From Chloroflexota bacterium (GTDB lineage: Bacteria > Chloroflexota > Anaerolineae > Aggregatilineales > Ch27): DNA of 38,568 nucleotides. The first letter of the stretch is position 1. Each line of letters opens with the position of its first letter. Positions 1,034 to 19,874 of this stretch are shown here, in pieces. The stretch is from assembly GCA_019873685.1 (NCBI GenBank), contig JAIOAT010000034.1, forward strand, positions 1 through 38,568. The letters run 5' to 3'. The notes beneath the pieces are model-generated. The model was given only the letters and a program-made list of their open reading frames with translations, was not told where the DNA came from and did not search any database. A program made the translations under genes and the position numbers.

Positions 1034-1981
1034 CTAGCGCCCTGCCTCTTTCTCCGTTGCAGCGCGCATCCGCGCTTCCCGCATGGGCAGGAGGGCGATC
1101 AGGCCCAGCGCCCCCATGTCGGCGAACAGCATCGGCGCCAGAAATGGCGCACCGCGCAGAAAACGCTCCGGGACGATGATGTTGCGGGTTGCCAGGCCGG
1201 CCTGCACATGCAAGAGGAAGCCAATCAGGCCGACGATGATCAGGGCGATCATGGCGGCAATCACGGTGATGGTGTCGCTCCGGCTGGGCTTCTCCAGCAT
1301 GCCGTAGGCGATCATGGCTACCGTGGCGAAGACTCCTACCAGCGTTGGCAGCCACACCCACAGGTTCTCAAAGTTAAAGCGCCCGTGATCCAGTACACTG
1401 CTCAGCAGTGTAGCCAGAATGCCCAGGCCGACCCAGATGCAGTACTGGCGGGTCTTGCTGAAAGGCACGCGCCAGCTGAACAACCCCGGTACTACCATCC
1501 GCCCGCTATCCGGCGGATCTTCCACTGTAGCGGCGATCACGCCCAGCACACCCACCAGCGAGAAAGTCAACGGGCCAATGATTGGCGGGGCGAACACCAG
1601 CAGCGCCAGGGCGACATCTGGCGTGCCCGGCCCGCTGGGGGGAATCGCCCGCGCCACATGGAAGTACGCGCCCAGCAGCCCGACGACAATGCTGGCGGCC
1701 AGCACGGCAAACGCCAGCAGGATCGCTGTCGTGCGGCGGCGCAGGGAGATCGCCCCGGCGATGAGCAAGACCAGCCCCGCCGTCGGGCCGAACACGATCG
1801 GGATCATCTCATTCGGGCGGATGGTGCCGTTCATGGCATGGGCCAGGTAAATATCCAGTCCCAGGAAGGCCAGGTTGAGGGCCACCATGAGCATCATGAT
1901 CTGCCCGCGTGTGATCCCCAGCCGACGCCCGGCCAGCACTATCCCCGTCTCTGTGATCTGCCAGTGGCTATTCAGGATCAT
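1034..1981 (-). CDS. Eight-helix membrane protein with duplicated halves and four matched histidines (putative partner of the octaheme cytochrome)
   Basis: A 315-residue polytopic membrane protein that I do not recognise as a named family. About eight hydrophobic helices can be seen. The two halves are related: GLLGAYFHVARAI (101-113) matches GLIGFLLHVQAGL (251-263), and His48/His108 in the first half correspond to His199/His258 in the second at offsets of 151 and 150. Each His sits at the end of a helix, as expected for b-heme or metal ligands; that role is inference. It lies 77 bp downstream of the octaheme cytochrome on the same strand, with a strong hairpin between them. It could pass electrons between the quinone pool and the cytochrome, in place of the NapC/NrfH or c554/cM552 partners known elsewhere. 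The ribosome binding site is weak, so the start is less certain. Confidence 0.75.
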   Translation of the reverse strand: MILNSHWQITETGIVLAGRRLGITRGQIMMLMVALNLAFLGLDIYLAHAMNGTIRPNEMIPIVFGPTAGLVLLIAGAISLRRRTTAILLAFAVLAASIVVGLLGAYFHVARAIPPSGPGTPDVALALLVFAPPIIGPLTFSLVGVLGVIAATVEDPPDSGRMVVPGLFSWRVPFSKTRQYCIWVGLGILATLLSSVLDHGRFNFENLWVWLPTLVGVFATVAMIAYGMLEKPSRSDTITVIAAMIALIIVGLIGFLLHVQAGLATRNIIVPERFLRGAPFLAPMLFADMGALGLIALLPMREARMRAATEKEAGR

Positions 1982-2058: not shown

Positions 2059-3363
2059 TTAGTCCGACCCGCCCCCGGATTCAGTCTCGGCGTGGCGCGG
2101 ATGGACGTATCCCGGCAGGTGTTCCACCGCGTACTCGCGCACTTCGGCCAGGGCCTGCAGGACTTCGTACGCGCCATGCCACTGCGCGTAATCCGGCCCC
2201 TGCATCCACACGCCGAACTTGGCCGTGCGGCCCCAGTGATGCCACAGCTCATAGATGGCGAAGTCGATCGGCTCGTCGAACGGTTCGGCAGTCAGTGCGC
2301 CGGCCTGCATCAGCGCCACACGCAGGTCCTCGCCCTCCTGTGTCCACTCGTTGACGCGCTCGGTGGCGGCGTCGGCAGCGGTGTAGAAATCGTTCACGAA
2401 GTTAGAGTTGTGGCATTCCATGCACACCGTCTGCATGCGCACCTTGTTATCCGTCCAGGCCGGGCGGCGGGTGGAGACGGGGTCAAAGAGGAACCAGGTC
2501 AGACGGTCGCCGACGTCGTGGGTGGTGCTGGCCGCGCCGATGCCGCTGATGTGGCAGATCGCGCAGGTGGCTGCCGGGATGTCCTCGACTGTGATCAGGC
2601 CCGGCTCGGCTTCCCAGTTCCAGGTATGGCCCATGGTGTGGTAAGCGATGCCGTGCGGCGATTCGGTGTAAATCTCATACTGCGGATGATCGGGGCCGAT
2701 ATGGCAGAAGTTGCAGGTCTCTGGCTTGCGGGCCTGTTCCAGGCTGAACTCGTGGCGCAGGTGGCACATCTGGCACTCGCCAGCGGAGCCATCCTCATGC
2801 GGGCGACCGATGTTGTGGCAGCCGTAGCAGGTGAAGCGGGTGATGGCGTCGCCTTCCAGCGCGGCGATCGCATTGCGCGACTTATCCGGGCTGGGCTGGC
2901 CTTCGGCGATGCTCAGGTACTGGGCCAGGTGCGTTTCGCTCAAATTCTGTGACCCGGCCACGGCCACGTAAGCGGGCAGTCCATGACGGCTGGCGTTGAA
3001 CTGAGTTACCTCCCGCGCGTGGCACTTCTGACAGAGCGCCGGGGTAGGCGAGTTGACAACATACGTGCCTTCGTGCGCGATAGCGTTGGGATAATCGGCG
3101 GCGACCACGTGGCAGTCCTCGCATTTGACATTGGCGGCAGCCATCGTGCTGTGGCCGTACTGCTGGACAATGCCCGGCGTGCTGTTGGCATGGCACTGAA
3201 CGCAGGGATTGGTGCTGCCCACCAGCACGTTCTGCCGGACGATTGACCCGCTTTCAACGCGCTCGGTGGACACCGGGCGGAAGATCACCGCCAGCACTGC
3301 GGCCAGTCCGATGAATACGATGGTGACGACAACGGCTGTGATCAACACGCGCTGTCTTGACAT
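2059..3363 (-). CDS. Octaheme c-type cytochrome, hydroxylamine oxidoreductase (HAO) family
   Basis: A 434-residue protein with eight CxxCH heme-attachment motifs at about 54, 81, 111, 179, 197, 217, 267 and 314. Residues 8-28 form one hydrophobic helix with no clear cleavage site, so it is probably anchored and faces outside. The region from about 275 to 400 is typical of HAO-family proteins: THDVGDRLTW, then CMECHNSNFVNDFY, then ELWHHWGR and GPDYAQWHG. HAO relatives oxidise hydroxylamine or hydrazine, or reduce nitrite or hydroxylamine. Tyr392 lies in the C-terminal region where true HAO has its heme-crosslinking Tyr, but I cannot align it with certainty, so direction and substrate stay open. 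The start was chosen at MSRQRV because GGGGGAG precedes it; a longer frame to 3456 has no such site. An FNR-type box lies about 100 bp upstream. Confidence 0.88.
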   Translation of the reverse strand: MSRQRVLITAVVVTIVFIGLAAVLAVIFRPVSTERVESGSIVRQNVLVGSTNPCVQCHANSTPGIVQQYGHSTMAAANVKCEDCHVVAADYPNAIAHEGTYVVNSPTPALCQKCHAREVTQFNASRHGLPAYVAVAGSQNLSETHLAQYLSIAEGQPSPDKSRNAIAALEGDAITRFTCYGCHNIGRPHEDGSAGECQMCHLRHEFSLEQARKPETCNFCHIGPDHPQYEIYTESPHGIAYHTMGHTWNWEAEPGLITVEDIPAATCAICHISGIGAASTTHDVGDRLTWFLFDPVSTRRPAWTDNKVRMQTVCMECHNSNFVNDFYTAADAATERVNEWTQEGEDLRVALMQAGALTAEPFDEPIDFAIYELWHHWGRTAKFGVWMQGPDYAQWHGAYEVLQALAEVREYAVEHLPGYVHPRHAETESGGGSD

Positions 3364-3414
3364 GGCGACTCCCCCGTTAGGCGGCCCGCTGGCAAGCGCG
3401 CCCGGACCGCGCCC

Positions 3415-3474
3415 ATACCATGGTATAAGCTCAGCATAGCTGCCCCGCCGGTGCATGTCGTTGATCTAGATCAA
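3415..3474 (-). promoter_or_regulatory. FNR-type operator and promoter of the octaheme cytochrome
   Basis: TTGATCTAGATCAA (3461-3474) is a perfect match to the TTGAT-N4-ATCAA site of the FNR/DNR/ANR group. On the minus strand a -10-like TATGCT (3438-3433) would give a start near 3426. The box centre (3467.5) is then 41.5 bp upstream, the classic class II activator position. A second perfect palindrome, ATACCATGGTAT (3415-3426), overlaps the predicted start point and could bind another regulator. Site and spacing are seen in the sequence; activation is inferred. Confidence 0.75.
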
Positions 3475-3643
3475 ACCTTCAGCAGAACGCCCCTGGCGAA
3501 CAGACGTCAGGGCTGTTGCACCGGCAACCCTGTGGACGAGTTCAGGCGCAACAGTTGTCCTGGCCGTGGCTGGAAGGCGGCTTCTGGCGCAGGCGGCGAG
3601 ACGCCGTAGAATACAGAGCAGTGTGGATGACGGAGGGGGAACT

Positions 3644-4372
3644 ATGCCAGACAATCGGGTACCTGAGCAAACACCGCGGCTGAACATCTATGGGGTCAAC
3701 ACCATCGGCAAGCATATCGGGCAGGCTGTCCTGACGGCGCTCATGCTCTTTCTGGGCGCCGGGTCGACGGACTGGCCCTGGGGCTGGGTCTTTGCCATCG
3801 TGACGCTTGTCTGCTGGATCGCCCTCAGTATTGTGCTGGCAGTGGGCAACCCGGAGCTGCTCAACCAGCGCGGCCAGCGCATCAAGCAGGCGACGGCTGG
3901 CACCAAGAAGTGGGACCTGGTTATCCTCAGCATCTACTTTGTGCTGATCCTGGTTCAGCCGCTGGTGGCCGGCCTGGACTGGCGCTACAACCTCTTAGGG
4001 CTGGTTTCTCCGCTGGTCAATGTGCTGGGCAATGGGCTGGTGGTGCTGGGGTTTGCCCTGCTGACCTGGTCGATGGTGGTGAACCGCTTCTTTGAGCCAA
4101 GTGTGCGCATTCAGGAGTCACGCGGGCATCAGGTCGTCACGGGTGGGCCGTTCCGCTATGTGCGCCATCCGGGTTATGCCGGCGTCATCCTCCAGTTCCT
4201 GGGCCTGCCGGTTGCCCTGGGGGCATGGACAGCCCTGATTCCCGGTGCCATCGGCGCCGTGCTCTTCATCATTCGTACCGCGCTGGAGGATCGCACGCTG
4301 CTGGAGGAACTGCCGGGATATCCGGAGTACGCCCGGCAGACCCGTTACCGGCTTATCCCCGGCCTCTGGTGA
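3644..4372 (+). CDS. Isoprenylcysteine carboxyl methyltransferase-like membrane protein
   Basis: A 242-residue protein with about five to six membrane helices. The C-terminal half holds the ICMT/PEMT-type S-adenosylmethionine site: GPFRYVRHPGYAG, followed by a hydrophobic stretch, then an EDRTLLEELPGYPEYARQTRYR segment whose E-E-L-P-G-Y-x-x-Y pattern is typical. Members methylate small or lipid substrates at the membrane; in bacteria the substrate is usually unknown and no prenylated protein is implied. The start is set by GGAGGGGGAACT just before the ATG; the frame upstream of it has no support. A weak -10 (TAGAAT, 3607-3612) lies ahead. It is transcribed away from the cytochrome gene, so the intergenic region is divergent. 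Confidence 0.85.
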   Translation: MPDNRVPEQTPRLNIYGVNTIGKHIGQAVLTALMLFLGAGSTDWPWGWVFAIVTLVCWIALSIVLAVGNPELLNQRGQRIKQATAGTKKWDLVILSIYFVLILVQPLVAGLDWRYNLLGLVSPLVNVLGNGLVVLGFALLTWSMVVNRFFEPSVRIQESRGHQVVTGGPFRYVRHPGYAGVILQFLGLPVALGAWTALIPGAIGAVLFIIRTALEDRTLLEELPGYPEYARQTRYRLIPGLW

Positions 4373-4397: not shown

Positions 4398-5090
4398 CTA
4401 CTGCATCGCCATCACGCGCAGCAGGTCCTCCTGCAGGACGCGGATCGCGCTGCGGTCGGTGGCGATGATGCCTGCCCGTTCCAGGGCGCTCAGGGCGCGG
4501 CTGAGCGTTTCCGGCGTGGTGGCCAGGTGGGCGGCGATGGCCGTCCGGGTGATGCTGGGGCCGCTGAGGGCGGGGTTTTCCAGTTGCTTGAGCAGGAAGC
4601 GGGCCAGCCGGGTAGTGACCGAATGCAGCGCCAGGTCTTCGACCTGCTGAACCAGTTCGCGGGTGCGCCCGCTCAGCACCTGGATCACGGTCATGGCCAG
4701 CCGGGGATCAGCCATGATCGCAGCGCGCAGAACGTCGTGAGGCAGGCAGCAGGCGATCACCTCGCTGAGCGCGGCGGCGTTGGCCGGGTTGGGGCCGCCA
4801 TCGAGGGCGGCGATATCGTTGCAGGAATCACCCGGCCCCACCAGATGCAGAATATGCTCGTTGCCTTCGGCGCTGACCTTGAAGATCTTGACCCGCCCGG
4901 CGTGGATAATCCATAGCCCGGCGGATGGTTCCCCTTCCAGAAAAAGCACTTCGCCGGCGGTCAGGGCATAACAGCGGGTTGCCGCTGCCAGCGCCTGAAG
5001 TTGTTCGCTGGCGACGCCCCGGAAGTAGCGATGTTGGCCCAGCTTCTGTGCCAGGGCAGTATCCGGCAGTGAGCGCGTGATGACAATCAT
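4398..5090 (-). CDS. Crp/Fnr-family transcriptional regulator (FNR/DNR-like specificity)
   Basis: A 230-residue regulator: cyclic-nucleotide-binding-type beta-roll (about 18-130), dimerisation helix (about 130-165) and winged helix-turn-helix (about 165-220). The recognition helix reads TTPETLSRALSALE, with Glu194, Ser197 and Arg198 in the E-x-x-S-R arrangement that FNR uses to read TTGAT. The N-terminal cysteine cluster of oxygen-sensing FNR is absent; scattered Cys (40, 90, 114, 115) do not form it. A DNR-like protein sensing NO or redox through heme is possible, but the signal cannot be told from sequence. The start at 5090 leaves a normal-length protein; the frame to 5171 would run through the promoter repeat. 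A perfect site for such a protein lies 0.9 kb away, before the octaheme cytochrome. Confidence 0.9.
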   Translation of the reverse strand: MIVITRSLPDTALAQKLGQHRYFRGVASEQLQALAAATRCYALTAGEVLFLEGEPSAGLWIIHAGRVKIFKVSAEGNEHILHLVGPGDSCNDIAALDGGPNPANAAALSEVIACCLPHDVLRAAIMADPRLAMTVIQVLSGRTRELVQQVEDLALHSVTTRLARFLLKQLENPALSGPSITRTAIAAHLATTPETLSRALSALERAGIIATDRSAIRVLQEDLLRVMAMQ

Positions 5091-19794: not shown

Positions 19795-19874
19795 GGGGCA
19801 GTGGCGGAACTGGCATACGCAGCAGACTTAAAATCTGCCGGGAAACCATGTGGGTTCGATTCCCACCTGCCCTA
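19795..19874 (+). tRNA. tRNA-Leu (anticodon UAA)
   Basis: A full cloverleaf can be drawn. The acceptor GGGGCAG (19795-19801) pairs with CTGCCCT (19867-19873) with a G-U at the end. The anticodon stem GCAGA/TCTGC encloses the loop CTTAAAA with anticodon TAA at 19829-19831. The T arm is GTGGG-TTCGATT-CCCAC. A variable arm of the class II type (GCCGGGAAACCATG region) fits leucine. The discriminator base is A and CCA is not encoded. It reads UUA and UUG codons. Confidence 0.93.

Follow-up and report, generated by a model that had tools for sequence, protein, structure and literature searches.

The locus considered here lies within a 38,568-nucleotide stretch of Chloroflexota DNA, which was analyzed as a whole and is referred to below as the window. 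An octaheme cytochrome gene and a membrane-protein gene stand there behind an FNR-type box, with a gene for a Crp/Fnr-family regulator nearby, and the following features, from low to high coordinates, make up the arrangement:

1034 to 1981, minus strand: membrane partner of 315 aa, directly 3' of the cytochrome gene, with four invariant histidines (48, 108, 199, and 258)
2059 to 3363, minus strand: octaheme cytochrome c of 434 aa, HAO/IhOCC-like, with an N-terminal membrane helix, eight CxxCH motifs, and a PF13447 match
3426, minus strand: predicted transcription start (+1), inferred from class II geometry
3433 to 3438 (reading from 3438 to 3433), minus strand: -10 hexamer TATGCT, equivalent to -12 to -7 if transcription begins at 3426
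3461 to 3474, minus strand: FNR-type operator TTGATCTAGATCAA, a perfect palindrome centered at -41.5, its spacing kept upstream of orthologs
4398 to 5090, minus strand: Crp/Fnr-family regulator of 230 aa (PF00027 and PF13545), with the recognition helix E194-T-L-S197-R198

Between the regulator and the cytochrome, positions 3644-4372 of the plus strand encode an isoprenylcysteine-methyltransferase-like membrane protein, and the same order is found in one relative (G001). Elsewhere in the window, 625-822 on the plus strand encodes a small protein with a very acidic C-terminal part (MAKRKITLNVPADLL...) and a long GC-rich leader, and an Rfam scan of the window returned only a tRNA at 19795-19874.

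An earlier note on this DNA had placed TTGATCTAGATCAA at 3461-3474, a minus-strand TATGCT at 3438-3433, and 41.5 bp between the center of the box and an implied start at 3426; when the sequence was re-read, the box was found at exactly that position, the hexamer was borne out, and the geometry agreed, with a box center of 3467.5. The gap from the box to the -10 element is 22 bases, and the window has no exact TTGAT-N4-ATCAA apart from this operator. An activator site at -41.5 and a -10 element, as in a class II FNR-dependent promoter, are both present, the start being predicted from them, and a search of 3350-3650 for an ordinary sigma-70 pair of -35 and -10 elements found none, as would be expected of a class II, activator-dependent promoter. 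DNR/FNR class II promoters (E. coli nrf and the Pseudomonas DNR regulon) share the TTGAT-N4-ATCAA at -41.5 and the same distance to the -10 element; the nrf promoter of E. coli is driven in class II fashion by FNR at -41.5 (PMC5434802), and FNR/DNR boxes have long been known in front of nir and nor genes (PMC1274295). The cytochrome start at 3363, common to the orthologs, follows the predicted +1 at a distance of 63 nt; a longer reading frame from 3456 would begin upstream of +1. A second perfect palindrome, ATACCATGGTAT, occupies 3415-3426 on the predicted start (+1 to +12); it recurs with one change in G001 and was seen in no other relative.

Conservation was followed through 101 genomes of the order, related MAGs that underlie all statistics given here. 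Orthologs of the cytochrome (54-98% identity) occur in 44 of them, G047 having a weak 37% fragment only. With any spacing allowed, 16 perfect boxes lie upstream of orthologous octaheme units, and 13 of these, from several families of the order, are followed by TANNNT at a gap of 22; at no other gap between 10 and 26 was a TANNNT seen. In the upstream regions of 44 orthologs, each of about 400 bp, the class II pattern was observed 7 times, against a mean of 0 after dinucleotide shuffling, while a sequence-blind scan for palindromic class II 14-mers upstream of octaheme units returned 13, every one of them TTGAT-N4-ATCAA. Across the order, the exact class II pattern occurs 61 times, in 46 of the 101 genomes, against a single occurrence in the reversed control. 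The genome that contains the window (G000; 4.12 Mb in 109 contigs, 97% complete) carries the exact box twice; the second copy sits within a glycosyltransferase coding sequence, presumably by accident, and this lends some color to the idea that the box at 3461-3474 is itself a chance palindrome; set against the exact spacing in relatives, the shuffled regions, and the reversed control, that idea is exceedingly improbable and, on comparative sequence grounds, already refuted by the conservation of exact spacing.

Only the site at 3461-3474 is left in its own genome once a gap of 22 and a TANNNT are demanded, and no further class II site was found there at one mismatch. With one class II site in the genome, the box would be a dedicated, essentially single-target site rather than part of a global regulon, although weaker sites are possible. 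The genome scan for TTGAT-N4-ATCAA that the earlier note had proposed, with the prospect of other nitrogen-oxide or respiratory genes behind the hits, gave its two exact hits but no second class II target; in relatives, such boxes do precede NrfHA and NirK. A genome-wide regulon built from one-mismatch boxes was discarded, as its 95 sites were mostly noise, and the class II pattern was used instead.

Among the genes behind class II sites that were read, NrfH and/or NrfA appear in at least 10 genomes, accompanied elsewhere by NirK (in G087 it exceeds the TIGR02376 cut-off), a cupredoxin-containing cytochrome-cd1 protein, YwiC-like proteins, pairs of small COX1-like proteins, and the octaheme unit; the N-oxide link that had been claimed for the box is borne out to the extent that class II sites precede nitrite reductases in relatives. 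A minority of the 61 sites are intragenic (e.g., in G068, G030, and contig C12 of G100) and presumably due to chance, and in some genomes the box precedes an upstream gene of the operon (a cupin, a ferredoxin-cupin, or a small COX1-like pair) and not the octaheme gene directly. A recognizable box within reach is absent in about 28 octaheme genomes, some of them at contig ends; eight octaheme genomes of the g28 genus have no recognizable box and almost no Crp/Fnr homologs, so that the gene there must be controlled otherwise. FNR-type control of the octaheme unit, as predicted from these boxes, is not universal across the relatives. Two loci with the same class II box have gene starts that resemble each other, and one of them (L221; the other is L220) encodes a cytochrome-cd1-type protein that begins with cupredoxin and cytochrome c domains. 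Pairs of COX1-like proteins of about 137 aa recur in nirK and octaheme operons of the order (L066, L068, L141, L187, L192, L225, and L061), accompanied by cupin and 2[4Fe-4S] ferredoxin genes, and their role is probably N-oxide related.

The regulator at 4398-5090 reads E194-T-L-S197-R198 in its recognition helix, which confirms the Glu194, Ser197, and Arg198 described in the earlier note, and its only cysteines, at 40, 90, 114, and 115, accord with the N-terminal Fe-S cysteines having been called missing; no cysteine is among the columns conserved in 90% of its orthologs. It is not an FNR in the strict sense of an N-terminal Fe-S cysteine cluster, whereas its E-x-x-S-R helix and the TTGAT-N4-ATCAA box place it in the FNR/DNR DNA-binding group, with covariation across 30 ortholog loci. 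Orthologs at 46% identity or more were found in 33 genomes, 32 of which encode NirK, NrfA, or the octaheme gene; NirK in particular is present in 23 of the 33 genomes with a regulator ortholog and in 2 of the 68 without (odds ratio 76, p = 7e-13). Control of nir-type N-oxide genes, as in DNR/NNR, is indicated by genome context only, with a class II site before NirK operons.

These orthologs fall into two helix types, E-x-x-S-R and Q-x-x-S-[TVN], the latter having Gln194 and no Arg198. An FNR-type box is nearby at 14 of 17 E-type loci and at one of 13 Q-type loci, that one without a -10 element, whereas TT[AC]A[GT]C-N2-G[CA]T[TG]AA, at a gap of 22 to TANNNT, occurs at 11 of 13 Q-type loci and none of the 17 E-type ones; the p value of 1e-6 for this covariation ignores kinship, and the Q-type pattern was defined on the same loci. 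By this comparison, the DNA specificity of a Crp/Fnr family has changed naturally in the Q type, and the fact that helix and operator changed together is the best computational evidence that the family of the neighboring regulator reads the class II site. Palindromes with TTAAGC or TTCAGC halves, of the Q type, lie in the regulator-nirK intergenic regions of L132, L133, L135, L137, L143, L145, L148-L151, and L155. In some nirK operons, extra CRP/HcpR-like palindromes of the TGTGA-N6-TCACA type lie upstream of the class II site; those at L137, L143, and L148 are just downstream of the regulator gene.

Two full Crp/Fnr proteins are encoded in the own genome, the neighbor with E-T-L-S-R and a cNMP+HTH_Crp protein at 16441-17082 of contig C45 with E-T-A-S-R. 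The latter has a matching helix and might be the reader of the box, the neighbor controlling something else, and distantly related Crp/Fnr proteins do adjoin the boxed octaheme gene in G051, G027, G006, G029, and G100; but the C45 gene is distant from the box, next to genes for an amino-acid permease and a metal ATPase, whereas orthologs of the neighbor adjoin boxed octaheme units in G001, G014, G025, and G061, the last three being from other families, their helix covaries with the operator, and the own genome offers the neighbor no other class II site. Reading of the box by the C45 protein is accordingly judged unlikely, and the regulator at 4398-5090 is the likeliest reader, its binding being predicted. 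The earlier proposal that this neighbor acts on the cytochrome unit gains from the conservation of the class II site and from adjacency and covariation, which make the E-x-x-S-R family the likely reader. A two-mismatch site at 5077-5090, considered as the regulator's own operator, was dropped because it overlaps the start codon of the gene.

The gene behind the box encodes, as had been claimed, an octaheme cytochrome: its sixteen cysteines all belong to eight CxxCH motifs, and there is no CxxCK. These eight c-heme motifs and a Multi-haem_cyto domain (PF13447, 94 bits against a cut-off of 21.9) place it in the HAO family. The best sequence match is IhOCC of Ignicoccus hospitalis (PDB 4qo5), followed by HAO, and the fold matches IhOCC, HAO, and HDH with Z of 10-14 over about 140-177 residues, IhOCC being again the best and reaching the C-terminal helices; the model is of moderate quality (pLDDT 74), and the fold comparison effectively covers residues 243-423 only. 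The predicted structure and the alignments thus agree on a HAO-family protein that is closest to IhOCC, then to HAO and HDH. IhOCC differs in being archaeal and shows 24% identity over the 177 aligned residues of the fold match. Whereas NrfA has five hemes, usually one of them on CxxCK, the present protein has eight CxxCH motifs, and PF02335 is absent both from a Pfam scan of the window and from the own genome, so that neither NrfA nor ONR is indicated. Met387-x7-Trp395 is invariant among the orthologs, and a Met/Trp signature has been reported for nitrite-reducing (reductive) Hao (PMC8940962). The sequence alignments with PDB entries end short of the Tyr that cross-links to the catalytic heme in oxidative HAO and HDH.

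In every relative whose contig extends far enough, the membrane partner lies directly downstream of the cytochrome. It matched no family in Pfam or NCBIfam, and, having no CxxCH and neither PF03264 nor any other Pfam match, it lacks the marks of an NrfH/NapC quinol dehydrogenase. Its model (pLDDT 83) is helical throughout, and identification by fold was given up as uninformative, the best matches being generic helical bundles (3d19, Z 14.5; bacteriorhodopsins, Z about 8). The partner may be a quinol dehydrogenase with b hemes, the heme role being suggested only by its invariant histidines. An octaheme-membrane pair of 62% identity occurs at L034 (4974-7183) in a MAG labelled Gemmatimonadetes, which could reflect horizontal transfer or misbinning.

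Octaheme unit and NrfA exclude each other. NrfA, called at scores above 450 bits, is found in 22 of the 101 genomes and the octaheme unit in 44, with 0 genomes shared and 9.6 expected (p = 7e-7), a count over related genomes whose observations are not fully independent; random draws of one genome per genus give a median one-sided p of 7e-5. In three genera, some species have the octaheme unit and others NrfA, and one of these genera shows an exchange in place. There, G027 has the regulator, the box, the octaheme gene, and the membrane-protein gene in order between flanking genes, and three genomes of the same genus (G011, G017, and G037) have matching flanks and promoter with NrfH-NrfA in between. 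The exchange locus keeps 72% DNA identity on the upstream side, promoter included, and 85% on the downstream side, and the encoded proteins 76% (regulator) and 85% (downstream gene). The swap of one cassette for the other behind a switch that stayed the same is an argument for the octaheme and membrane proteins doing the work of NrfA and NrfH, and the pair is probably an overlooked replacement for NrfHA. This position of the target in NrfHA's slot, the main point here, had escaped the earlier note.

An oxidative role for the octaheme protein (hydroxylamine or hydrazine dehydrogenase), or one as a general electron carrier, would be compatible with its HAO-family fold and with hydrazine dehydrogenase (NF052343) being its top-scoring NCBIfam model. 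The score of 71 bits, however, falls far short of the curated cut-off (900), the unit is exchanged in place with NrfHA and is found in no genome that has NrfA, the promoter class is typical of anaerobic reductases, and Met387-x7-Trp395 is invariant, so that such a role seems doubtful. It is the displacement of NrfHA, the promoter class, and the Met/Trp signature that argue for a reductase. A route through free hydroxylamine via Hcp was also considered and proved not discriminating (Hcp in 17 of 44 octaheme and 5 of 22 NrfA genomes, the own genome among its holders). For NarG as the source of nitrite, the model gives weak matches in the own genome and none over the cut-off, which would leave nitrite or NO to be supplied by another reductase or from some other source.

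The box, its geometry and conservation, the covariation of helix and operator, the gene pair, the exclusion of NrfA, and the exchange with NrfHA, all computed here, can be joined in a mechanism for which we infer binding, activation, the signal (NO or nitrite), catalysis, and the direction of electron flow. A regulator lacking an Fe-S cluster, most likely that at 4398-5090, would sense an N-oxide or redox signal, presumably NO or nitrite with O2 as a further candidate, bind TTGATCTAGATCAA at -41.5, and recruit RNA polymerase in class II fashion; the two-gene unit of a HAO/IhOCC-family octaheme cytochrome and a polytopic four-histidine membrane protein would then be transcribed, the membrane protein would take electrons from quinol, perhaps via b hemes bound by its histidines, and the octaheme protein would reduce nitrite, NO, or hydroxylamine outside the membrane, yielding ammonium or hydroxylamine. 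We consider it likely that a class II FNR/DNR-type promoter, read by a non-Fe-S Crp/Fnr activator, controls a two-gene quinol:nitrite (or NO/hydroxylamine) reductase in NrfHA's place. The narrower proposal, that the octaheme protein and its four-histidine partner form an undescribed, ammonifying quinol:nitrite reductase of Chloroflexota that displaced NrfHA while the regulator and FNR-type promoter were kept, has about an even chance of being right.

Known systems offer partial parallels. DNR/FNR promoters likewise serve N-oxide respiration and are read through an E-x-x-S-R helix (PMC1274295; PMC5434802); here, however, the host is a member of the Chloroflexota, the regulator lacks the N-terminal cysteines of FNR, one or few sites per genome usually make up a dedicated rather than a global regulon, and regulator and operator shift together within one ortholog family. 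In Campylobacterota, the idea that a reverse-acting HAO stands in for NrfA has already been put forward and in part tested (PMC2628731; PMC3701875), and epsilon-Hao of Nautilia and Campylobacter resembles the present protein as a HAO-family octaheme cytochrome proposed to be a quinol-linked nitrite reductase replacing NrfAH, with NrfA mostly absent and the Trp and Met signature present (PMC3701875; PMC2628731; PMC8940962). Its electron donor, by contrast, is a NapC/NrfH-type cytochrome (cM552), whereas here a membrane protein with four invariant histidines, unrelated to NrfH, takes NrfH's place. The likeness to NrfHA itself lies in the shared locus and promoter of sister species and in a weak C-terminal fold similarity (Z about 5).

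The open-licence literature yielded no paper on the Chloroflexota octaheme unit or its control, and the epsilon-Hao literature found contains no placement behind an FNR box in NrfHA's stead; as far as found, there is no precedent for the unit in Chloroflexota, the membrane protein that accompanies it, its control by this promoter, its exchange with NrfHA in place, or the co-evolved second operator. The covariation of helix and operator within one ortholog family constitutes a natural experiment on change of DNA specificity in Crp/Fnr proteins, and the exchange of NrfHA and octaheme unit behind an unchanged promoter offers a direct, testable route to the function of HAO-like octaheme proteins. 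With the pair, the reverse-HAO idea would reach Chloroflexota and gain a new membrane partner. Surveys of ammonifiers have counted nrfA and onr (PMC10716430), so that the octaheme pair would be missed; if the proposal is true, an order of Anaerolineae would harbor, in 44 of the 101 genomes sampled, an unrecognized nitrite-reducing system with a new kind of electron-delivery protein.
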